Part shown: one piece after another, positions 11,295 to 27,555 of the stretch
Layout of the letters: each line of letters opens with the position of its first letter
Position numbering within the stretch: position 1 is the stretch's first letter
NCBI GenBank assembly: GCA_021815825.1
Contig: JAKAZO010000033.1
Coordinates: 1 to 32,252 of the forward strand
Source: Pseudomonadota bacterium
Lineage (GTDB): Bacteria > Pseudomonadota > Alphaproteobacteria > Acetobacterales > Acetobacteraceae
Length of the DNA stretch: 32,252 bases
Direction of reading: 5' to 3'
Program-made: the position numbers and the translations under genes
The notes under the pieces: model-generated
The model's input: only the letters and a program-made list of their open reading frames with translations
Database searches by the model: none
What the model was told of the DNA's origin: nothing

Positions 11295-13130
11295 TCAGCC
11301 TTCGGCGAGAGCCTGCAGGACCGCGGCGCCGTAGCGACGGAGCTTCGAGGCGCCGATGCCGCGCACCTCGGCGAGATCGTCCAGCGAGGCCGGGCACTGC
11401 GCCGCCAGTTCCTGCAGCACGCTGTCGTGGAAGATCACGTAGGGCGGCACACCCTGCGTACTCGCCTCACGCTTGCGCCACGCCCGCAGCGCCGCGAAGC
11501 GCGCCTCCGCCCCCGGTGACATCGAGGCCGGTGGCATCGAGGCCGGGTGGGGCCGCGCTGCGACCCGCCCGCGGGCCGGCTTGGGGCCGGGCACCGATGC
11601 GCGCAGCATCACCGCAGTCTCTCCGCGCAGGATCGGCCGGGCGGCCTCGCTCTCCAGCGTCAGACTGGCGAACTCCCCGGTGGCGACGGAGAGCGCCCCG
11701 CGGACGACGAGCTGGCGCACCACCTCGCGCCAGAACGCGACCGGCCGGTCGTGCCCGAGGCCGAACAGCGCGAGCCGGTCGTGGCCGTGCCGCAGCACCG
11801 TCTCGCTGCGCTCGCCGCGCAGCACGGCGATCACGTGCAGGGCGCCGAACATCTGCCCGGTGCGATAGACCGCCGAGAGCAGCATGCGCGCCGCCTCGGT
11901 GCCATCCTGCATTTCCGGCGGCGCGCGGCAATTGTCGCAATGGCCGCAGGGCTCGGCGAGCCCCTCGCCGAAACAGGCCAGCAGCGCGCGGGTGCGGCAC
12001 TCCGCGGTCTCGGTGAGCGCCACCATCGCTTCCAGCCGCGCGCGCATCGACTGCTTCTGCGTCTCCGAGGCCGCGGACTGGGCGAGGAAATAGCGGGCGC
12101 GGGCGACGTCCTCGCCGCCATGCAGCAGCAGCGTCTCAGCCGGCTCGCCATCGCGCCCGGCGCGGCCGATCTGCTGATAGTAGGCCTCCGGGCTGTCGGG
12201 CATGTCGAGATGGGCGACAAAGCGGACGTCCGGGCGGTCGATGCCCATGCCGAAGGCGATCGTCGCCACCATCACCACAGGCTCGCCGGAGCGGAAGCGC
12301 GCCAGCGCCGCACGCTTTGCCGCCGGTTCCAGCCCGGCGTGGAAAGCGAGCGCCGGGGCGCCGCGCTCGGCCAGGCGGGCGGCGATGCGTTCGGTGCGGG
12401 CGCGGCTGCCGCAATAGACGATGCCCGCCTCGCCCTCGTGGCGGGCGAGGAAGGCGGCGAGCTGCGCGGTCTCGCCGATTTTCGGCTCGGCGGCGAGGAA
12501 CAGGTTGGGCCGGTGGAAGCTGGCGGCGAAGACGCGCGCCCGATCGAGCCCGAGGGCGGCGAGGATGTCGCTCTGCGTGCGGGGATCGGCCGTGGCCGTC
12601 AGCGCGATGCGCGGCACCCCGGGGAAGCGCTGCGGCAGCACCGAAAGGGCACGGTACTCGGGGCGGAACTCGTGGCCCCACTGCGAGACGCAGTGCGCCT
12701 CGTCGATCGCGAACAGCGCCAGGTCGAGCCCGTCCAGCCGGTCGATCAGCCCCGAGAGCAGGCGTTCGGGCGAGACGTAGAGCAGGTCCAGCGCGCCGCG
12801 GCGGAGGTCCTGCAAGGCGGCGCGCGCATCCGGCGGCTCCAGCTCCGAATGCAGCGCCGCGGCCGCGACGCCCGCCTGCCGCAGCGCCGCCACCTGGTCG
12901 TCCATCAGCGCGATCAGCGGCGAGACGACGATGCCGGTGCCGCGGCGGCAGATCGCCGGCACCTGGTAGCAGAGGCTCTTTCCACCCCCGGTCGGCATCA
13001 GCACCAGCGCGTCGCCGCCGGCGATGACGTGCTCCACCGCCTCCTGCTGCAGGCCGCGGAAGCCGGCGAAGCCGAAGACCTCGCGCAGGACCGCGCGCGG
13101 CGCGCTGTCAGGCGGCGGCGGCGACGGCAT
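11295..13130 (-). CDS. recQ: ATP-dependent DNA helicase RecQ
   Basis: RecQ is a 3'-5' DNA helicase of recombination and replication-fork repair. The 611 residues match the family length (about 609 in E. coli). Motif I is MPTGGGKS (45-52), motif II DEAH (143-146) followed by CVSQWGHEFRPEY, the aromatic-rich loop. Motif VI is QQIGRAGRDG (319-328). The zinc site has four cysteines (378, 395, 398, 401), then a winged helix, and a C-terminal HRDC domain (about 535-605, with VRGIGASKLRRYG). The start ATG at 13130 overlaps the cydC stop by 23 bases, so expression is probably tied to cydDC. A gamma-glutamyltransferase-family gene follows after 45 bases. Confidence 0.96.
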   Translation of the reverse strand: MPSPPPPDSAPRAVLREVFGFAGFRGLQQEAVEHVIAGGDALVLMPTGGGKSLCYQVPAICRRGTGIVVSPLIALMDDQVAALRQAGVAAAALHSELEPPDARAALQDLRRGALDLLYVSPERLLSGLIDRLDGLDLALFAIDEAHCVSQWGHEFRPEYRALSVLPQRFPGVPRIALTATADPRTQSDILAALGLDRARVFAASFHRPNLFLAAEPKIGETAQLAAFLARHEGEAGIVYCGSRARTERIAARLAERGAPALAFHAGLEPAAKRAALARFRSGEPVVMVATIAFGMGIDRPDVRFVAHLDMPDSPEAYYQQIGRAGRDGEPAETLLLHGGEDVARARYFLAQSAASETQKQSMRARLEAMVALTETAECRTRALLACFGEGLAEPCGHCDNCRAPPEMQDGTEAARMLLSAVYRTGQMFGALHVIAVLRGERSETVLRHGHDRLALFGLGHDRPVAFWREVVRQLVVRGALSVATGEFASLTLESEAARPILRGETAVMLRASVPGPKPARGRVAARPHPASMPPASMSPGAEARFAALRAWRKREASTQGVPPYVIFHDSVLQELAAQCPASLDDLAEVRGIGASKLRRYGAAVLQALAEG

Positions 13131-14736
13131 GCCCGGCCGAGAGGCGCCAGATCCGGTCGAGCCGCTCCACCCCGGTGAGCCGGTGCGCGATCAGGATGAC
13201 GCTGCGCCCCCCGGCGACGGCGTTGAGCGTGGCGAGGAAGGCGCGCTCGGTCTCGGCGTCCAGTCCGGCGCAGGGTTCGTCGAGGATCAGGATCGCGGCC
13301 GGGGAGAGCAGGGTGCGGGCGAGGGCGAGGCGGCGGCCCTGGCCACCGGAGAAGCGTACGCCGCTCTCGCCCACCCAGCTCGCCAGCCCATCGGGCAGGG
13401 CGCGGACGGTATCGCCGATCTGCGCCGCGTCGAGCGCCGCCCATAGCGTGGCGTCGTCGGCCTCCGGCGCCGCGAGGCGGAGATTGTTGGCGATGGTGTC
13501 GTCGAAGAGATGCGTCGTCTGGCCGAGCCAGCCGATGCGCCGGCGCAGGTCGGTCGCCGCCAGCGTCGCGATATCGGTGCCGCCCAGAAAGATGGTTCCG
13601 GCCTCCGGCGCGGCGGTGCGCAGCGCCAGGGCGGCGAGGGTGGATTTGCCGGCGCCGGAGGGGCCGAGGATGGCGACCCGCGCGCCCTGCGGCACCTCCA
13701 GGCTGAGCCCGTCGAACACCAGCGGCCGGTCCGGCTGCCAGCGGAAGCGCACCGCCTCGAAGCGCAGGGCGAACCCGGGCGGCAAGGGCGCCGGCTGGTC
13801 CGGCTCAGGCACGGCGGGCGCGGCGTCGGCCGCCGCCTCCAGCACCCGCGCCGCCGCTGCGGCGGCATGGCCGGCCAGTGCGCCGGCACGCGGCAGCCCG
13901 CCGATCGCCTCAAACGCGGCGGCGACGAGAAAGGCGGCGCCGATGGCCGGCAGCGGTTGCGCGCCGGCGGCGATGAGCACCGCCAGCAGGGCCGCCTGGC
14001 CGCAGAGAAAGGCCAGCGCGCCGGCGACGGCGCCGCGCCCGGCGACGCGGGACTGCGCCGCGAGCAGCGCCGATTCGCGGCCCTGGATCAGGGCCAGCAT
14101 GCGCCCCTCGGCGCCGAAGGCGCGCACCTCGCGGATGCCGCTCAGCGTATCGAGCACGGCGATGCGCAATTCGGCGGCCGCCTTGGTCAGCATGCTGCCG
14201 CCCTCCAGCGCCCCGCGCGCCGCGAGCGCGGGCAGCACGAAGCCGGCGAGCAGGAACAGCGCGACCACGACGAGCCCGAGCAGCGGCGCGCGGCGGGCGA
14301 ACAGCAGCGCCAGCGCCAGGCACAGCACCACCCCGCCGGCCAACGGCACCAGGATGCGCAGATAGAGCCCATCCAGCGCCTCGACGTCGTTGACCAGACG
14401 CGAGAGCATGTCGCCGGCGCGGCGGAAGCCGAGCCCGCTGGCGGCGCGGACGGCCAGGCCACGAAAGAACCACACCCGCAGATCGGCCAGCGCGCGGAAG
14501 GTCGCCGCATGGGTGAGCAGCCGCTCGGCATAGCGGAGCAGGACGCGGGACGTGCCGAGAAAGCGCAGCAGGCCCGGCATCATCACCCCGCCGGCGAGAA
14601 CGGTGGCGACGACCGCGCCGGAGCGGGCCATCAGCGCCACCCCGGTCGCCGTCGCCATCATCGCCACGATCAGGCCGGCGCCGAGCCAGCCGGCCTCGCT
14701 CCGCCACAGCGCGAGGATTCGCCGCAGCGCTCTCAC
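13108..14736 (-). CDS. cydC: Thiol reductant ABC exporter subunit CydC
   Basis: CydC is one half of the heterodimeric CydDC exporter, which sends glutathione and cysteine to the periplasm and is needed for assembly of cytochrome bd and c-type cytochromes. The 542-residue protein has an N-terminal six-helix membrane domain (to about 310) with RAGDMLSRLVNDVEALD, typical of CydC. The ATPase domain follows: Walker A GPSGAGKST (about 355), signature FSGGQGRRLALARTLL (about 460), Walker B AILILDEPCAGLD, and the H-loop in LIAHRLT. The GTG start at 14736 overlaps the cydD stop by 4 bases. Its own stop lies 23 bases inside recQ. Confidence 0.93.
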   Translation of the reverse strand: MRALRRILALWRSEAGWLGAGLIVAMMATATGVALMARSGAVVATVLAGGVMMPGLLRFLGTSRVLLRYAERLLTHAATFRALADLRVWFFRGLAVRAASGLGFRRAGDMLSRLVNDVEALDGLYLRILVPLAGGVVLCLALALLFARRAPLLGLVVVALFLLAGFVLPALAARGALEGGSMLTKAAAELRIAVLDTLSGIREVRAFGAEGRMLALIQGRESALLAAQSRVAGRGAVAGALAFLCGQAALLAVLIAAGAQPLPAIGAAFLVAAAFEAIGGLPRAGALAGHAAAAAARVLEAAADAAPAVPEPDQPAPLPPGFALRFEAVRFRWQPDRPLVFDGLSLEVPQGARVAILGPSGAGKSTLAALALRTAAPEAGTIFLGGTDIATLAATDLRRRIGWLGQTTHLFDDTIANNLRLAAPEADDATLWAALDAAQIGDTVRALPDGLASWVGESGVRFSGGQGRRLALARTLLSPAAILILDEPCAGLDAETERAFLATLNAVAGGRSVILIAHRLTGVERLDRIWRLSAGHAVAAAA

Positions 14737-16406
14737 GCCGCGCCTCGCGCGGCCGTCGCCCGCCCGGCGCGCAGTTCCAGGCGTCGGCCGGGGAAGGCGT
14801 GGACCGCGGCCGAGTGGCTGGCCAGGATCACCGTCCGCCCGATCGCCAGCCGGCGCAGACTGTCCAGCACTTCGGATTCGGTGACGGGATCGAGATGCAC
14901 GGTGGGTTCGTCGAGCAGCAGCAGCGGCGCATCCTTGAGGAAGGCCCGCGCGATGGCGATGCGCTGCGCCTGGCCGCCGGAAAGCCCGTAGCCGCCCTCG
15001 CCGATGACCGTGTCGAAGCCCGCCGGCAAGGCGTCTGCGAAGGCATCGACGCGGGCCGAACGGGATGCCGCCTCGACCTCGGCGTCGGTCGCCTCGGGGC
15101 GCGCGAAGCGGATATTCTCGCGCAGCGTGCCGGCGAACAGCACCGGACGCTGGCCGATCCAGGCCGTCATGCGGGCCAGGGCCGCGGGAACGATGCTCGC
15201 GATATCGGCGCCGTTGAGCGTCACCCGCCCGGAGCCGGGACGGATGAAGCCGAGCAGCATCTCGAGCACGGTGGATTTGCCGGCGCCCGAGGGACCGATC
15301 AGCAGCAGGGTCTCACCGGCCGGCACGCGGAAGCTGATGCCATCGAGCGCCGGGCCACGGGCTTCGTCCCAGGCGAAATGGACATCCTCGAAGGCGACGG
15401 ACACACCGCGCGCGGCGACGGTGCGCACGGCGGCTGCCGGGGGCGGGGCCGGGCGCGGCGGCACCGAGGGCAGGTCGGCGAGTGCGTCGGCCGCGCCGGT
15501 GGCGTGCATCCGGTCCTGATACGCGGCGGCGTAGGTGCGCAGCGGGGCGAAGAATTCGGGCACCAGCAGCAGCGCGAACAGCGCCGTTTCCGGCGCGGCC
15601 AGCCGATGGGCGGCGAGAGTGGCGCCGTAGTGCAGCGCCAGCCCGACGAGAGCCGCCGCCATGGCGAGATCGAGCACGGCCGAGGAGAGGAAGGCGACGC
15701 GCAGCACCCGCATCGTGCGTCGCCGCAGATCGGCCGCCGCCGCGGCCAGGGCGCGCGCCTCGTCCTCGGCACGGCCGGCGAGGACGATGGTGGCGATACC
15801 GCGCACGCGGTCGAGAAACCGCGCCTGGAGCCGAGCCATGGCCAGGAACTGCCGGCGCGAGGCGACGGCGGCGCCGATGCCGGCGAGCGCCATGCCGAGC
15901 GGGACGAGCAGCCCGGCCCCAGCCAGAACGGCGGCGGCGAGAGGGTCGGCGAGGAGGGCAGCGAGCAGCACCAGCGCCGGTCCGGCGACGGCCACGATCG
16001 AGGCCGGCAGCCAGCGGGCGAACAATCCGTCGAGCGCTTCGACCCGGTCCACGACGGCGGCGGCCAGCTCGCCCGAATGGCGCTGCCGCACCAGCGCCGG
16101 ACCGGCCTCCAGCAGGCGGCCCAGCACGTCGTGCCGCAGGCGGCGGCGTCCCGCCGCGCCAGCCGCCACGGCAGCGCGCTCGGCGGCGATGCCGAGCCCG
16201 GCCCGCGCCAGGGCGAGGGCGACGAAGCCGGCGAGCAGCCAGGGCCGGGCACCGCTCCCGATCAGGGCGGCGGCAACGATCCGGGCCTGGGCGACGGCCA
16301 GCACCACCAGGACCAGTCCCAGCGCGACCGCCGGCAGCGCGGCGGCGCGCGCGCCGGACGTCTGCTGGCGCACCCAGCCTTTCGCATCCAGCCTGGACTC
16401 GGTCAT
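14733..16406 (-). CDS. cydD: Thiol reductant ABC exporter subunit CydD
   Basis: CydD is the partner of CydC in the glutathione/cysteine exporter. The protein is about 557 residues, with an N-terminal transmembrane domain (AKGWVRQQTSGARAA near the start is a typical CydD opening) and a C-terminal ATPase: Walker A GPSGAGKST (about 374), signature LSGGQAQRIAIARAFL, Walker B LLLLDEPTVHLD and H-loop ASHS. The start is unsure: the ATG at 16406 is taken, but a GTG at 16418 in the same frame would add four residues, and neither has a clear ribosome-binding site. It is 83 bases downstream of the DUF488 gene. No cydAB (cytochrome bd oxidase) lies next to it in this window. Confidence 0.92.
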   Translation of the reverse strand: MTESRLDAKGWVRQQTSGARAAALPAVALGLVLVVLAVAQARIVAAALIGSGARPWLLAGFVALALARAGLGIAAERAAVAAGAAGRRRLRHDVLGRLLEAGPALVRQRHSGELAAAVVDRVEALDGLFARWLPASIVAVAGPALVLLAALLADPLAAAVLAGAGLLVPLGMALAGIGAAVASRRQFLAMARLQARFLDRVRGIATIVLAGRAEDEARALAAAAADLRRRTMRVLRVAFLSSAVLDLAMAAALVGLALHYGATLAAHRLAAPETALFALLLVPEFFAPLRTYAAAYQDRMHATGAADALADLPSVPPRPAPPPAAAVRTVAARGVSVAFEDVHFAWDEARGPALDGISFRVPAGETLLLIGPSGAGKSTVLEMLLGFIRPGSGRVTLNGADIASIVPAALARMTAWIGQRPVLFAGTLRENIRFARPEATDAEVEAASRSARVDAFADALPAGFDTVIGEGGYGLSGGQAQRIAIARAFLKDAPLLLLDEPTVHLDPVTESEVLDSLRRLAIGRTVILASHSAAVHAFPGRRLELRAGRATAARGAA

Positions 16407-21033: not shown

Positions 21034-21174
21034 GGGCGGACTATGCCTGCGGCGCGGACGAGGCGTCCAGGGATCGGCTGCCGGGTCGCCGCGCGCGAAA
21101 CGAGGCCAGCCCGTTCAGCGTTGTCAGGCTTGCGTCAGCTTCGGCCCCTATGACTGTGAGGGATCGGAACAGGT

Positions 21175-21193
21175 GTCGCCGCCCTGCGGCGAC
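21175..21193. promoter_or_regulatory. Perfect 8-bp hairpin in the leader of the glycosyltransferase cluster
   Basis: GTCGCCGC (21175-21182) and GCGGCGAC (21186-21193) pair perfectly around a CCT loop. The structure lies 89 bases before the ATG at 21283 in a 249-base divergent gap (21034-21282). No T-run follows. I cannot place a convincing sigma-70 promoter in this gap: TTGTCA (21121) and TATGAC (21149) are too far apart. Confidence 0.45.
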
Positions 21194-21282
21194 CCGGATC
21201 GGGCGAGGCGGCATCCGCACCGCGCCAGGTCTTGAGCGGGATGTCGTTCCGACCGAACCAGCGGAGCGGAAAGGAAGTTATC

Positions 21283-23883
21283 ATGCCCGACGGCAGTTTC
21301 GAATTCAGCTCCGAGCCATTCCGGGCCGGACCGGCGGGGCCGCGCGCCGCTGCCCGCTCGCGGGTGTTTCTCTATTCGCACGACACGTTCGGGCTCGGCC
21401 ATCTGCGCCGCAATCTCGCCATCGCCGAGCAGTTGCTGGCCTCCGATGATGGCTGCGAGGTGTGGCTGCTCAGCGGTTCGCCGGTGATCCGCCGGTGGGA
21501 TCTGCCCGCGGGCCTCTGGGTGCAGCCGCTGCCGCCGGTGGTGAAAGTCGGGGCCGAGCGCTACGTCGCGCGCGGCGGCGTGCATCCGTTCGGGCTGGTC
21601 AAGGGCTATCGCGAGGCGCTCATCCTCAATGCCGTGATGCGCGAGCGCCCGGACGTGATCGTGATCGATCATGCCCCCGCCGGCATGAAGAACGAACTCC
21701 TGCCGATGCTGGCGGCGGTGCGCCAGGAAATGCCGGATACGCGGGTCGTGCTCGGGCTGCGCGACATCATCGACGCGCCGGAAGTGGTCTGCCGCCTGTG
21801 GCAGGAGGAGGAGACCTACGAGCTGCTGGAACACGCCTACGACCAGATCATGGTCTATGGCAGCCGGGACCTGTTCGATCTCGCCGCGAGCTATCGTCTG
21901 CCGTCCACCGTCGCCGCGAAGCTGCGCTACGTCGGCTATGTCGGCCGCCCTGCCGCGGCGCGGGTCGACGCTCCGTGGCCGGGCCTGGAGGCCGCGCCCG
22001 GCAAGCGGGTGCTGGTGACCGCCGGCGGTGGTGGCGACGGCTACGGCATGATGCTGGCGTATTTGAATGCTCTGGCGTCGCTGCCGGTGCACGCCACCGC
22101 CTCGCTGCTCGTGCCCGGCCCGCTGATGCCGCATGAACAGGTGGAGGCGCTGAGGCACCTGGCGGCGGCGCGGCCGGATGTCGGGCTCCTGCCCTTCACG
22201 ACCGATCTCGTGCACAGCGTGGCGCGGGCCGATCTGGTGGTGGGGATGGGTGGCTACAACACGGTTTCGGAGATTCTGGCGGCGAACAAGCCGGCCATCA
22301 TCGTGCCGCGCGCGGCGCCGCGGGTGGAGCAGTTGTTGCGGGCGCGCCTGCTGGAGCGGCTCGGCCTGGTGCGGGTGGCCGAGGAGGGGGCGGACCTGGC
22401 GGCGCGGCTCGCCGCCATGTTGCCGGTCGTGCTGGCGGAGCGGGCGCCACCGGCACGGCGCGCCGGCGTGATCGATCTCGATGGCGCGCGCCGCGCCGCC
22501 GCGGCGATCGCCGACCTCGCGGCCACGCGGAGCCCCGCGCCGGTGCCGGCGGCGCCAGCCCCGGTGCAAGCGGCGCCGACGCCGGCGCATGGCCGGCGCG
22601 TCGCCTATGTCATGAAGCGCTACCCGCGGCTCAGCGAGACCTTCATCCTCAACGAGATCTGCGCCATGGAGGAACTCGGCGAGCGGCTCGAAATCTATTC
22701 GCTGCTGCCGCCGGAGCCGCCGCCGCACCATCCCATGGTGTCGCGGGTCGCGGCGCCGGTGCACCATCTGCCGCTCACCCTGGGCCGGAAGCTGGCGGTG
22801 CTGGCGCGGGCCCACGCGGCGAGTCTGGCGGCGGCGCCGCTGCGCTATGCCGGCGCGGTCGGCCGCGCCGCGCTCTGGTCGGTGCAGTCGCCGAACCCGC
22901 TCTCGGTGTGGAAGCAGTTCCTGCGGGCCGGGTTCCTGGCCACGCTTTGCCGCGAGCGCGGCATCACCCACATCCACGCCCATTTCGCCAATGCGCCGGC
23001 GGCGGTGGCGCGATTCGCCTCGGTCATGTCGGGACGGCCGTTCAGCTTCACGACCCACGCCAAGGATCTGTACCTGACGCCGGCAAAAGTCATACGCAAG
23101 CGCGTGAACGCCGCCGCGTTCGTGGTCACCTGCACGCATCACAATGTGGAGTATCTGCGCCAGGTGCTGCCGGCGGAGTCGCACCGCAAGGTGAACCTCA
23201 TCTATCACGGCATCGATCTATCGCGGTTCCGCTATCGCGTGCCGCGCTACAGCTTCCTGGCGCTCGGCGCGGAGGCGCAGATCCTGTGTGTGGCCAGGCT
23301 GGTGGCGAAGAAGGGGCTCGATGATCTGATCGCCGCCTGTGCCATTCTGGCGGCCCAGGGGCAGCGGTTCCGCTGCCGCATCGTCGGCGCCGGGCCGCTG
23401 CGCGAGACGCTCGCTGCCGACATCGCCGCCCGTGGCCTCGATGGCGTCGTCACGCTCGAAGGGGCGATGACCCACGACAATCTGATCGGGCTGTTCGCCC
23501 AGGCGGACCTGTTCGCGCTCGCGCCGCGCATCACCGACGATGGCGATCGCGACGGGATTCCCAATGTCATCGTCGAGGCGATGGCGACGGGCGTGCCCGT
23601 GGTTTCCACCGCGGTCTCGGGCGTCCCCGAACTGGTCGAGCACGAGCGCACCGGGCTCCTGGTGCCGCCGAACGACCCCGCGGCGCTGGCCGCGGCGATG
23701 GCGCGTCTGCTCATCGAGCCGATGCTCGGCCAGCGGCTGGCCGCCGCCGCGCGCAGCCGGCTCGATGGCTGCTTCGATTGCTGGCAGAACACGCGGGCGC
23801 TGCGGGGGCTCGTCGGCTCCCTCGTCTGCGAGGCGGTCACGCCCTCGCTCGCCGACGCCGACGCCGAGCCGGCGGCGGCGTGA
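21283..23883 (+). CDS. Fused glycosyltransferase: GT28/MurG-like domain plus GT4 domain
   Basis: An 866-residue protein made of two different GT-B glycosyltransferases. Residues about 27-405 resemble the MurG-like predicted glycosyltransferases of COG4671: FLYSHDTFGLGHLRRNLAIAE at the N-terminal acceptor side and VGMGGYNTVSEILAANKPAIIVPR (about 318-341), the donor-binding GGxxT/SxxE pattern. A Pro/Ala-rich linker (about 415-436) follows. Residues about 438-850 form a GT4 enzyme with YVMKRYPRLSETFILNEI at the start, LCVARLVAKKGLDDLI, and the donor-binding GIPNVIVEAMATGVPVVST (EX7E type, about 758-776). The linker is in frame without a stop. The ATG at 21283 has AAGGAAG upstream; a TTG at 21232 and an ATG at 21241 are poorer. 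It is followed after 5 bases by another GT4 gene. The sugar and acceptor are unknown. Confidence 0.88.
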   Translation: MPDGSFEFSSEPFRAGPAGPRAAARSRVFLYSHDTFGLGHLRRNLAIAEQLLASDDGCEVWLLSGSPVIRRWDLPAGLWVQPLPPVVKVGAERYVARGGVHPFGLVKGYREALILNAVMRERPDVIVIDHAPAGMKNELLPMLAAVRQEMPDTRVVLGLRDIIDAPEVVCRLWQEEETYELLEHAYDQIMVYGSRDLFDLAASYRLPSTVAAKLRYVGYVGRPAAARVDAPWPGLEAAPGKRVLVTAGGGGDGYGMMLAYLNALASLPVHATASLLVPGPLMPHEQVEALRHLAAARPDVGLLPFTTDLVHSVARADLVVGMGGYNTVSEILAANKPAIIVPRAAPRVEQLLRARLLERLGLVRVAEEGADLAARLAAMLPVVLAERAPPARRAGVIDLDGARRAAAAIADLAATRSPAPVPAAPAPVQAAPTPAHGRRVAYVMKRYPRLSETFILNEICAMEELGERLEIYSLLPPEPPPHHPMVSRVAAPVHHLPLTLGRKLAVLARAHAASLAAAPLRYAGAVGRAALWSVQSPNPLSVWKQFLRAGFLATLCRERGITHIHAHFANAPAAVARFASVMSGRPFSFTTHAKDLYLTPAKVIRKRVNAAAFVVTCTHHNVEYLRQVLPAESHRKVNLIYHGIDLSRFRYRVPRYSFLALGAEAQILCVARLVAKKGLDDLIAACAILAAQGQRFRCRIVGAGPLRETLAADIAARGLDGVVTLEGAMTHDNLIGLFAQADLFALAPRITDDGDRDGIPNVIVEAMATGVPVVSTAVSGVPELVEHERTGLLVPPNDPAALAAAMARLLIEPMLGQRLAAAARSRLDGCFDCWQNTRALRGLVGSLVCEAVTPSLADADAEPAAA

Positions 23884-23888
23884 CGCCG

Positions 23889-25145
23889 ATGCGGATCGTC
23901 TACCTCAATCTCGATCGCGGCATTCCGGTCCTTGGCGACAAGGGGGCCTCGGTGCATGTGCGCTCGGTCGTGACGGCGCTGGCGCGGCTCGGCCACGACG
24001 TGACGCTGGTCTGCTCGCGCGCCGGGGAGGGCAATGCGCCGCCGCCTGGGCGGCTGATCGAGCTTCCGCCGGCGATCGACGAGGCGGCGCTCCTCGCGGA
24101 GGGCGAGCGCCTCGGCCTGCCCGCCGCCACACTGGCCGAGCCACTGTATCGGCGCGAGCTGACCGTGCTGGCGCATGATCGCGCGCTGGTGGCGCGGGCG
24201 CTCGCCGCATTGGCGCTGGAAGGGGTGCGGCCGGATCTCGTCTATGAACGGCACGCTCTGTTCCATCTGGCCGGCATCGCCATCGCCGCGGCCTGCGGTG
24301 TGCCGCGCGTGCTCGAGGTGAACGCGCCGCTGGCGGAGGAGCAGGCACGATACCGTGGCCTCGCCCTGCGCGACCTCGCCGCCGAGCGCGAGGCGCGCTC
24401 GTGGCGGGGAGCGGATCTCGCCGTCCCGGTTTCGGACGACGTGCGCGCGCACCTGCTGGCCGCCGGGGTGCCGGATGCCCGCGTGCTGGTCACGCCGAAC
24501 GGTGTCGACACGGGCTTGTTCCGGGCCGACCCGTTGGGCGCCGCCGAGGTCCGCCAGCGCTGGGGGCTGGGCGATGATCCAGTGATCGGCTTCGTTGGCA
24601 GTTTCAAGGCGTGGCACGGCGTCGGCTTCCTGATCGAGGCGCTGGGCCGGCTGCGCCAGGCGATACCGCGGGTGCGGCTGCTGGCGGTCGGCGCGGGGCC
24701 GAAGCTGGCCGAGGCGCAGGCGCTGGCTGCCTCGCTCGGCCAGGGCGAAGCGGCGGTGTTCACCGGCGCGGTGCCACACGCCGCGATCCCGGCGCATCTG
24801 GCGGCGATGGACCTGACGGTGGCGCCCTATCCAGCCCAGGACGGGTTCTATTTCTCGCCCCTGAAGATCGTGGAATCGCTGTCCGCCGGGCGGCCGGTGG
24901 TGGCGCCGCGCATCGGCCAGATCGAGTCCCTGCTGGCCGACGGTGTCACCGGGCTGCTCTATCCGCCCGACGACCTCTCCGCCTGCGTCACCGCGATCCG
25001 GCGGCTCCTCGACGAGCCTGGACTCTGCCGCCAGCTCGGCGGGCAAGCGGCCTCGCAGGCGCGGGCGGCCTGGGACTGGACCGCGGTGGTGAGCCGCGTG
25101 CTCGACCGTGCCGCCCGGGCGCCGGCATGCGAGGTGCTCGGATGA
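23889..25145 (+). CDS. GT4-family glycosyltransferase
   Basis: A 418-residue GT-B fold glycosyltransferase. The N-terminal half opens with MRIVYLNLDRGIPVLGDKGASVHVR, with the GASVH acceptor loop usual in GT4. The C-terminal half has VSDDVRAHLLAAGVPDARVLVTPNGVDTGLF, IGFVGSFKAWHGVGFLIEAL and GFYFSPLKIVESLSAGRPVVAP (about 320-341), the donor-site region, in which a Phe/Tyr-rich stretch replaces the first Glu of EX7E, as in many GT4 enzymes. No signal peptide or membrane helix is evident, so it should be cytoplasmic or peripheral. It begins 5 bases after the fused glycosyltransferase gene, and its stop overlaps the ABC exporter start (ATGA), so these genes are expressed together. Donor and acceptor sugars cannot be told from the sequence. 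Confidence 0.92.
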   Translation: MRIVYLNLDRGIPVLGDKGASVHVRSVVTALARLGHDVTLVCSRAGEGNAPPPGRLIELPPAIDEAALLAEGERLGLPAATLAEPLYRRELTVLAHDRALVARALAALALEGVRPDLVYERHALFHLAGIAIAAACGVPRVLEVNAPLAEEQARYRGLALRDLAAEREARSWRGADLAVPVSDDVRAHLLAAGVPDARVLVTPNGVDTGLFRADPLGAAEVRQRWGLGDDPVIGFVGSFKAWHGVGFLIEALGRLRQAIPRVRLLAVGAGPKLAEAQALAASLGQGEAAVFTGAVPHAAIPAHLAAMDLTVAPYPAQDGFYFSPLKIVESLSAGRPVVAPRIGQIESLLADGVTGLLYPPDDLSACVTAIRRLLDEPGLCRQLGGQAASQARAAWDWTAVVSRVLDRAARAPACEVLG

Positions 25146-26929
25146 GTGCCATGCCCTGGCGCCTTCGCCGCTACCTCGGCGTTGAACGGCGGCGGATCCT
25201 GCTCGGCAGCCTGGCCATGGCGGCCCGGGCCAGCGTGCTCGTGCTGCTGCCCTGGCCGCTGAAATATCTCGTCAATGTCGTGATGTTCGGGAAGTCGCCG
25301 CCGCATTGGCTGGCGCATCTGTTGGGCTGGGCGCCGTCCGATCGGTTCCTGCTGCTGAACCTGCTCAGCGCGGTGATGCTGGCGCTCGCTCTGGCCGACT
25401 CGCTGCTCGATTATCTCGGCAACCGGCTGTTCCTGGAAGCCGGACAGCGCGTGGTCTTCTCGGTTCGCCAGGACCTGTTCGGCCACCTCGCCCGGCTCCC
25501 GCCCGCCTTTCACCGGGCGCGCCGCGGCGGCGAACTGATGTCGCGACTGAGCGAGGATGTTGGCCGGATGAAGGATCTGGTCACTGTGGTGGGTACGGCG
25601 CTGCTGCCGCATATGCTCACGCTCCTCGGCATCGTCGCCACCATGCTGGTGGTGGACTGGCGCTACGCGCTGCTGGCCACGGCCATTCTCCCGCCGCTCA
25701 TCTTCGTCAGCCGGCATTGGTCGCTGCGGCTGCGCCATCAGTTGCGCAGTCTGCGCATGCAGGATGGTGAGCTCTGGGCGATGGCGCAGGAAGTGCTGGC
25801 CGTGCTGCCGCTGGTGCAGGCCTGCGCGCGCGAGCCACACGAGCTCGGCCGCTTCGTCCGCCGTGCCGCGCATAGCCTGCGCTCGGGCATGGTGACGAGC
25901 CACACCCAGTCGCAGTTCGCGCCGCTGATCAACCTGCTGATCGGGCTCGGCGCCGCGACGGTGGCCTGGTACGGCACGCGGCGCGTGATCGCCGGCACAC
26001 TCACACCGGGCGATCTGATGCTTTTCCTCGCCTATCTGCGCGGCATGGTCACGCCGGCGCGCCAGATCGCCAAGGCGGCGCCGGTGCTCGGCCGGGCGAG
26101 CGTGGCGCTCGAGCGGATCCGCGAACTGTTCGCCGAGCACGCCGCCATCGCCGACGCGCCGGATGCCACGGCGCCGGAGCGCTGCATCGGCCATCTGGAG
26201 TTCCGCGGCGTCCGGTTCGGCTACGCTGCCGGGGCGCCGACGCTGGAGGACCTCTCGTTCGCGCTGGAACCGGGGCGGAAAGTGGCGCTGGTGGGCCCGA
26301 GCGGGGCGGGCAAGAGCACCATCGCTGCGCTCGCCGTTCGCTTCGCCGACCCCGATGCCGGCGCGGTGCTGCTGGACGGGCAGGATCTCCGCGGCCTGCC
26401 CCTCGGCTTCCTGCGCAGTCACGTCGCGCTGATGCTGCAGGACGCGCCGTTGCTGCACGGCACGGTATGGGAGAACATCGCCTATGGCCGTCCCGGCGCC
26501 GATCGGGCCGACGCCATCCGCGCCGCCGTGGCCGCCGGGGTGGACCCGATCATCCGGGCGCTGCCCGCCGGCTACGACCAGCCGGTCGCCGAACGGGGCG
26601 CCACGCTCTCGGGCGGGCAGCGCCAATGCATCGCCATCGCCCGGATCACGCTGGCGGAGGCGAGGGTGGTGATCCTCGACGAGCCGAGCAGCAGCCTGGA
26701 TGCGGCCACCGAGCAGGGCGTCGCGGCGGCGCTGGCGCGCCTGACGGCGACGCGCTCGACCCTGGTGATCGCGCACCGTCTCGCCACCATCCGCGATGCG
26801 GACCAGATCCTCGTGCTCGAGCGCGGCCGGATCGTGCAGCGCGGGACCCATTCGTCGCTGCTGCGCGAGGGCGGGCTCTATGCCCGGCTGCTGCAGGCGC
26901 AGGAGCGGACACCGGTGGCGGCCGAGTAG
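25142..26929 (+). CDS. Type I ABC exporter, membrane and ATPase domains in one chain
   Basis: A 595-residue half-transporter of the MsbA-like exporter type, expected to work as a homodimer. The membrane domain (about 1-325) has six helices. In the ATPase domain, Walker A is GPSGAGKST (about 385-393), followed by the Q-loop LMLQDAPLLHGTVWENI, signature LSGGQRQCIAIAR (about 489), Walker B VVILDEPSSSLD and H-loop VIAHRLATI. The Cys after GGQRQ replaces the usual Arg of LSGGQRQR. It starts inside the last codon of the GT4 gene, and the phosphatase gene follows after 2 bases. In this context the substrate is probably the glycolipid or glycan made by the neighbouring glycosyltransferases; this is inference from position only. 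Confidence 0.93.
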   Translation: MSAMPWRLRRYLGVERRRILLGSLAMAARASVLVLLPWPLKYLVNVVMFGKSPPHWLAHLLGWAPSDRFLLLNLLSAVMLALALADSLLDYLGNRLFLEAGQRVVFSVRQDLFGHLARLPPAFHRARRGGELMSRLSEDVGRMKDLVTVVGTALLPHMLTLLGIVATMLVVDWRYALLATAILPPLIFVSRHWSLRLRHQLRSLRMQDGELWAMAQEVLAVLPLVQACAREPHELGRFVRRAAHSLRSGMVTSHTQSQFAPLINLLIGLGAATVAWYGTRRVIAGTLTPGDLMLFLAYLRGMVTPARQIAKAAPVLGRASVALERIRELFAEHAAIADAPDATAPERCIGHLEFRGVRFGYAAGAPTLEDLSFALEPGRKVALVGPSGAGKSTIAALAVRFADPDAGAVLLDGQDLRGLPLGFLRSHVALMLQDAPLLHGTVWENIAYGRPGADRADAIRAAVAAGVDPIIRALPAGYDQPVAERGATLSGGQRQCIAIARITLAEARVVILDEPSSSLDAATEQGVAAALARLTATRSTLVIAHRLATIRDADQILVLERGRIVQRGTHSSLLREGGLYARLLQAQERTPVAAE

Positions 26930-26931
26930 CC

Positions 26932-27555
26932 ATGGATGGCATGGAGGGCGCCGCTCCCCCGTCGGCCCCGCGGCGCCTGTTATTGGTGCGTCATGCGGCA
27001 ACGGAGTGGACCGCCGAGGGGCGCTATCAGGGCCGCCGCGATCCGCCGCTCTCGGCTGCCGGCTGCCTTGAGGCGGCCCGGCTCGCCACAGCGCTTGCCG
27101 GGCGGCCGATCGGTCTCATCATCTCGAGCCCGCTCTGCCGCGCGCTGGCGACCGCCCGGCCGATCGCCGCGGCGACCGGCGCCGCGCTCCGCATCGACGA
27201 GCGGCTGGTCGAGATCGCCTATGGAGACTGGGAGGGGCTGACCCAGGCGGAGGTCAAGGCGCGATTCCCGGACGAACTGCGCAGCTGGAAACGGACACCC
27301 GCGACCGCGCGCCCGCCGGCCGGGGAAACCCTGGCCGAGGCCCGCGCCCGGCTCGAGGCGGCCCTGGCCGACCTGCCCGCACGGACCGGCGGCGGCGAGG
27401 TCGCCGTGGTCACACATGACCTGCTCATCCGCCTCGCCCTGCTGATGGCGAACGGCGAGGGGCTGGAGCGGGTGCGGTCCATTGCCGTGCCCCCCGCATC
27501 CGCCCATCCGCTGCTGCTGCGCGGCGGACGGCTCGCGCCAGCCGCTGCGGCGTGA
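26932..27555 (+). CDS. Histidine phosphatase family protein
   Basis: A 207-residue member of the histidine phosphatase superfamily (phosphoglycerate mutase/CobC/GpmB branch). The catalytic motif is LLLVRHAATEW (about 17-27), with A in place of the G of RHG. Other marks are the GRYQGRRDPPLSAAG loop, ISSPLCRALATARPIA, ERLVEIAYGDWEGL (catalytic Glu region) and the second His in VVTHDLLIRLAL. A phosphatase is more likely than a mutase. Related enzymes act on phospho-glycoconjugates, cobalamin precursors or glucosyl-3-phosphoglycerate; with glycosyltransferases next door, a phosphorylated sugar or lipid intermediate is a reasonable guess. The ATG at 26932 lies 2 bases after the exporter stop; an in-frame ATG at 26941 is an alternative. 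It closes the cluster. Confidence 0.88.
   Translation: MDGMEGAAPPSAPRRLLLVRHAATEWTAEGRYQGRRDPPLSAAGCLEAARLATALAGRPIGLIISSPLCRALATARPIAAATGAALRIDERLVEIAYGDWEGLTQAEVKARFPDELRSWKRTPATARPPAGETLAEARARLEAALADLPARTGGGEVAVVTHDLLIRLALLMANGEGLERVRSIAVPPASAHPLLLRGGRLAPAAAA

Follow-up and report, generated by a model that had tools for sequence, protein, structure and literature searches.

Two glycosyltransferases of different families are fused in one protein in a clade of the Acetobacteraceae

The window analysed here, i.e. the whole 32,252-nucleotide stretch of an Acetobacteraceae contig, contains a long frame in which an earlier note had seen two glycosyltransferases of different families joined by a Pro/Ala-rich linker at about residues 415–436. 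Such a frame raises the question of whether it is a genuine fused gene, how widespread the architecture is and what the two enzymes would do together. Translation gave a single open frame of 866 codons followed by one terminal stop at positions 21283–23883 of the forward strand, and the purine-rich GGAAAGGAAG precedes its ATG at 21283. An equal fused frame is present in five further genomes (G001, G002, G214, G209 and G398), whose proteins are 71–92% identical to that of the window. The window belongs to a 150-contig draft assembly, in which two genes might have been joined by an assembly or sequencing artefact. This explanation is refuted by the open junction in six genomes, including Rhodopila globiformis DSM 161, with linkers that differ, and we attach next to no probability to it.

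Two modules in one reading frame

The 866-residue protein consists of two complete GT-B glycosyltransferase modules, assigned by Pfam to GT28 and GT4, and a disordered Pro/Ala linker; the two different families and the linker are as the earlier note had claimed. The N-module, of the GT28/GT1 kind, covers residues 1–415 (21283–22527, forward strand), the linker residues 416–437 (22528–22593, forward strand) and the GT4 C-module residues 438–866 (22594–23880, forward strand). The AlphaFold model of the full protein had a mean pLDDT of 89.6 with values below 50 at residues 1–4, 848–866 and 417–435, the last of which places the linker where it had been proposed. With a pTM of 0.58 the mutual placement of the two modules in the full-length model is not trustworthy, and the model lends no structural support to channelling between them. 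Across residues 401–450 the GC content by codon position was 0.84, 0.72 and 0.92, a coding-like pattern that is unbroken through the linker. The long minus-strand frame 21148–23208, which covers this part of the window too, was rejected as a gene, as a Pfam scan at E 0.01 gave no match for it. Internal duplication was likewise rejected, in agreement with the earlier note: the best BLASTP match between the N-half and the C-half had an E value of 0.059 over 19 residues. Profile comparison revealed a weak resemblance of the C-terminal domains of the halves (probability 72%, E 3.4e-5, 154 columns), which does not exceed what is expected for two GT-B enzymes. The unstructured Pro/Ala linker would be an easy cleavage site for a protease, and the C-module might also be made from an internal start, but the in-frame starts at residues 396, 421, 428, 444 and 462 are not preceded by a clear ribosome-binding stretch as judged by eye. 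That the fused protein is cut, or the C-module also made separately, appears very improbable.

The N-module matches the GT28 C-terminal domain (PF04101) at residues 297–379 with 35.0 bits against a cut-off of 22. This domain was found at E values up to 0.01 in all rows of the N-family alignment A2 (32 rows, the window's sequence among them), in which 42 columns are invariant. Landmarks of the module are the YSHDTFGLGHLRR loop at residues 31–43, GGGGDG at 248–253 and MGGYN at 322–326. Modelled alone, the N-module reached a pTM of 0.90 and formed a complete GT-B fold. This fold, at residues 23–410, resembles that of MurG/GT28 and of GT1 enzymes (CalG1, vancomycin-type Gtfs), and the GT28 C-terminal Pfam domain is common to the N-module and MurG-like enzymes. 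The best fold match was CalG1 (3oth; Z 27.5, 335 residues, 3.7 Å), and Pseudomonas MurG (3s2u) matched with Z 26.1 over 312 residues at 23% identity. MurG is the UDP-GlcNAc:lipid I transferase of family GT28. In contrast to MurG proper, the N-module stays far below the NCBIfam MurG cut-off (TIGR01133, 26.9 versus 250.25 bits), and in the N family the N-terminal Pfam domain of GT28 was not recognized at E 0.01. Judged by its family, the N-module is probably inverting.

Having a GT-B fold is not in itself proof that the N-module acts as a transferase. Among the 50 fold matches listed (Z 23.6–27.5) are the UDP-GlcNAc 2-epimerases 3ot5, 7vz6, 5enz, 7vza and 3beo with Z 24.2–25.0, and the N-module might accordingly be pictured as a non-transferase GT-B enzyme, e.g. 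UDP-GlcNAc 2-epimerase-like, that feeds the C-module. Since epimerases have the GT-B fold too, it is the sequence families and not the fold that mark the module as a transferase. Besides the GT28 C-terminal domain in 32 of 32 rows, Pfam listed no epimerase family, and the 14 PDB sequence matches of the N-family profile were all MurG or GT1-type transferases by name (top match MurG 1f0k, 3.2e-9). Furthermore, transferase fold matches scored equally high or higher, with up to 23% identity. We regard an epimerase-like N-module as extremely improbable.

For the C-module, the GT4 domains PF13439, PF00534 and PF13692 were recognized between residues 537 and 825; from highest to lowest, the three Pfam scores were 117.5, 115.2 and 30.6 bits against cut-offs of 27, 26.4 and 28.5. 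The C-family alignment (29 rows including the window's sequence) has 27 invariant columns. GT4 transferases carry an E/D-x7-E motif whose canonical first acidic residue is Glu; in the C-module the first acidic residue is instead Asp, and the motif D757-x7-E765 of the fused protein (D321/E329 of the C-module) is invariant in 29 of 29 rows. The GT-B fold and the GT4 Pfam domains are as in BshA, HepE (Alr3699) and EpsE. The fold matched BshA of Staphylococcus aureus with Z 38.5 (350 residues, 2.7 Å) and HepE with Z 36.1, and the top NCBIfam model was EpsE (NF041876) with 208.7 bits, below its cut-off of 400. Going by the GT4 family, the C-module is probably retaining.

Distribution and origin of the fusion

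Of 397 genomes sampled from the family to which the window belongs, 32 gave a match (E up to 1e-40), and six of these show one stop-free match over both halves. These six fall into three genus groups, namely the window with G001 and G002, G214 with G398, and G209 alone. The halves are separate in 25 of the other 26 genomes with homologues (on separate neighbouring frames in 24, and likewise in G163), and G295 shows the C-half only, at a contig start, where fused or separate cannot be told. In a cross-phylum set of 64 loci, three were fused, 56 had the halves in separate frames and five (L085 and L087–L090) were without one half. The three fused loci L028, L029 (R. globiformis DSM 161) and L030 were taken as G002, G398 and G001 and not counted twice. 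At 54 of the 64 loci the separate genes are adjacent, N before C; at L045, whose C match (25% identity) lies 4.7 kb away, and at L084, with C at a distance of 950 bases, they are separate and not adjacent. The set covers Pseudomonadota, Actinomycetota, Planctomycetota, Nitrospirota, cyanobacteria, Verrucomicrobiota (Opitutaceae), Desulfovibrio and others. The check for two adjacent separate genes in relatives, which the earlier note had proposed, thus gave a positive answer both within and beyond the family.

Matches were also found in 129 of 385 genomes of the class (E up to 1e-50), 24 of 395 of the order (1e-50) and 32 of 388 of the phylum (1e-55), these samples overlapping one another and the family sample. 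Independent fusions were not seen in them: among the matches listed, every span over both halves had an internal stop except in the six known genomes. At 25 loci the C-half lies in a long open frame that might have held a fusion, and at none of them did a single frame contain both halves (L155 and L178 are the same place; 11 are class-sample rows with the C-half only and a frame of at least 800 residues). Nine further loci yielded seven with both halves and no fusion and two, L188 and L194, with the C-half only. These searches would miss a fusion with very divergent halves. Within the samples searched, the fused architecture is restricted to one clade and uncommon.

Some loci deserve mention in their own right. 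In G199 (L147:7078–8793, forward strand) the N-half is cut by one in-frame stop, and a Crocosphaera MAG (L031:7246–8484, forward strand) has one in-frame stop in the C-half; in each case either the gene is broken or the sequence is in error. Genome G061 has two differing N/C loci, L127 and L128, both at contig ends and incomplete; they stand apart on the tree and are possibly two paralogous copies. Near the unfused pair of L034, a frame of 1192 residues (11431–15006, forward strand) combines an ABC exporter, a cyclic-nucleotide-binding domain and a GGDEF domain.

The fusion arose once. A 48-row tree built from both halves in concatenation places the six fused rows in one clade with support 100/100, present in 200 of the 200 bootstrap trees counted; 17 outgroup rows were hand-picked from the available loci, and L124, L127, L128 and L147 are among the incomplete rows. 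For 24 unfused loci (23 genomes of the family), the N gene stops within ATGA (16), GTGA (4) or TGATG/TAATG (4), and an overlapping start lies in the C frame at 22 of them (15 ATGA, 3 GTGA and 4 TGATG/TAATG; the exceptions are L128 and L139). Since the genomes are related, these counts are not independent of one another. A occupies 7.8% of the third codon positions in the N genes of these loci. The overlaps in the unfused family members suggest that overlapping, coupled genes were probably also the state in the ancestor of the fused clade. Fusion would then have required a change of frame plus the loss of the stop.

The linker varies in length among the six fused proteins, being shortest in G398, and has a higher dN/dS than the modules. 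Using NG86, we obtained for the window versus G001 dN/dS values of 0.12 (N-module), 0.63 (linker) and 0.16 (C-module), and for the window versus G002 values of 0.10, 0.52 and 0.20, the linker values being computed over residues 401–438. The linker value for G001 versus G002, 0.93, rests on very few changes. For four more distant pairs the modules gave 0.16–0.30, rough ratios since the module dS of 0.63–1.39 is high. Both halves are under purifying selection. This bears on the possibility that one module is catalytically dead and now serves as scaffold or acceptor-binding partner of the other. A division of labour between catalytic and scaffold partners is known among glycosyltransferases, and activity of either module is here a prediction. 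Selection on both halves and the presence of all family-invariant columns (42 in the N-module, 27 in the C-module) in the window's protein nevertheless argue against a dead module, which we consider quite improbable. Probably both modules are active, judged by their full GT-B folds and the residues conserved throughout the families.

The gene cassette around the pair

In the window the fused gene is followed by three genes on the same strand. A second, separate GT4 gene (23880–25145, forward strand) begins with a GTG that overlaps the stop of the fusion as GTGA, with an alternative ATG at 23889. The fourth gene of the cassette, counting the two halves together with this GT4 as the first three steps in the order N-C-GT4, encodes an MsbA-like ABC exporter with membrane and ATPase parts (25142–26929, forward strand) and overlaps the preceding stop as ATGA. 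The run ends with a histidine phosphatase superfamily (branch 1) gene (26932–27555, forward strand; PF00300, 3.4e-54), which starts two bases past the exporter's stop. Upstream, on the opposite strand, lie a frame for a SurA/PPIC-type peptidyl-prolyl isomerase and trpE. Pfam and NCBIfam recognized no polymerase among the cassette genes scanned.

To call the cassette elsewhere, a GT4b match of at least 100 bits and an ABC match of at least 200 bits downstream of the pair were demanded. The cassette recurs in several phyla, the order N-C-GT4b-ABC being complete at nine unfused loci of the 64 (L031, L040, L041, L044, L050, L059, L075, L077 and L091) and at the three fused ones. L043, L056 and L061 have the GT4b gene and no ABC match at this threshold, the contig of L056 ending early. 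Most of the remaining cross-phylum loci show no clear GT4b or exporter match near the pair; an additional GT28-like gene is present at many of them. As most loci show no clear counterpart of the third or the fourth gene by the pair, the cassette is not universal. Within the family, the order is kept through ABC and HIS at all five fused loci fetched, where HIS directly follows the exporter, and at 20 of 25 unfused loci. The exceptions L126, L128, L129 and L147 end at contig ends, and L148 (G120, of a divergent type) gave no matches. A subclade of the family members without the fusion has one more gene, placed between exporter and phosphatase (L132:13839–14681, forward strand; L137:755–1621, reverse strand). 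A Pfam scan up to E 1 gave no match for it; by eye it looks like a putative secreted, outer-membrane barrel-like protein.

N-C-GT4-ABC also occurs on the plasmids of Escherichia coli (pCFSAN004179G, L182) and Paracoccus aestuarii (L185). The unfused pairs on E. coli, Paracoccus and Rhizobium plasmids, annotated as 'glycosyl transferase family 28' and 'glycosyltransferase family 4', have homologous halves in the same order and differ from the window in being two genes, not one. The listed Escherichia, Paracoccus, Rhizobium and Pseudorhodobacter rows show 34.6–37.3% identity. At the Rhizobium plasmid locus, unlike in the window, the exporter match is only weak. The E. coli cassette continues with two APH-type phosphotransferases, an alginate-export family protein and a nucleotide sugar dehydrogenase, and that of the Paracoccus plasmid with APH-type phosphotransferases; no such extras were seen beside the cassette of the window. 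The plasmid version looks like a mobile surface-glycan cassette. On a Manganitrophus plasmid the pair is followed by an alginate lyase family gene, and in the unfused family member L132 a UDP-glucose/GDP-mannose dehydrogenase follows HIS. In some lineages, these annotations hint at a surface saccharide that contains uronic acids. For the window, beside whose cassette no genes of the uronic acid type were seen, such a product is only a guess.

What the fused protein would do

On these data we favour, with a probability of roughly 0.7, a bifunctional glycosyltransferase that originated when two neighbouring genes of an assembly-and-export operon, already coupled in translation, were fused in a single event, and that adds two successive sugars. 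The N-module and the C-module would add two consecutive sugars to one membrane-associated acceptor at the inner face of the membrane, the flexible linker keeping the modules close; a further sugar would come from the GT4 encoded next, and flipping of the product would fall to the MsbA-like exporter. We infer the activities, their stereochemistry, the sugars, the acceptor, the order of transfer, any channelling and the export of the product. The earlier note had taken the fusion to suggest that two sugars are added in turn to the same acceptor. Conserved adjacency together with the cassette makes sequential action on one acceptor likely, and sequential transfer is plausible; a particular donor, acceptor or order does not follow from the fusion.

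A fusion can also persist without functional gain. The two enzymes might share a pathway and catalyse non-consecutive steps, so that the fusion merely replaced translational coupling, with its equal dosage, and brought no mechanistic coupling. This would fit the genes of unfused family members, which already overlap at ATGA, GTGA or TGATG, as well as the disordered linker with its changing length. Yet the N-then-C adjacency has been kept in several phyla despite differing neighbourhoods, which fits consecutive steps better, and we consider a neutral fusion unlikely.

Other families and combinations than GT28-like plus GT4 make up K4CP, LARGE1 and the Actinobacillus pleuropneumoniae capsule multienzyme 8qoy. 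K4CP and LARGE1 (PMC13411425) resemble the fused protein in having several catalytic modules in one chain that builds a glycan, and so, by the title of its PDB entry, does 8qoy. These proteins differ from the window's in that they extend polymers, whereas no polymerase was recognized among the scanned genes of the cassette. Fused glycosyltransferases are a known kind; within limited searches the combination of GT28-like and GT4 modules is new, and neither a description of this pair or of the fusion nor biochemical evidence for members of the N or C family was found in the literature searched. The fusion itself is genuine and of an ordinary kind.

A tentative possibility is an undescribed multi-phylum pathway in which a surface saccharide or glycolipid would be assembled and exported by the GT28-like enzyme, the GT4, the second GT4 and the MsbA-like exporter, the product of the first module of the fusion being passed directly to the second. 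Genes fused in one clade and adjacent but separate elsewhere are good evidence that the two enzymes work together. For this widespread glycosyltransferase pair, of which we found no characterization and whose unfused form is also carried on plasmids of E. coli and Rhizobium, the fused protein offers a single handle on donors and acceptor.
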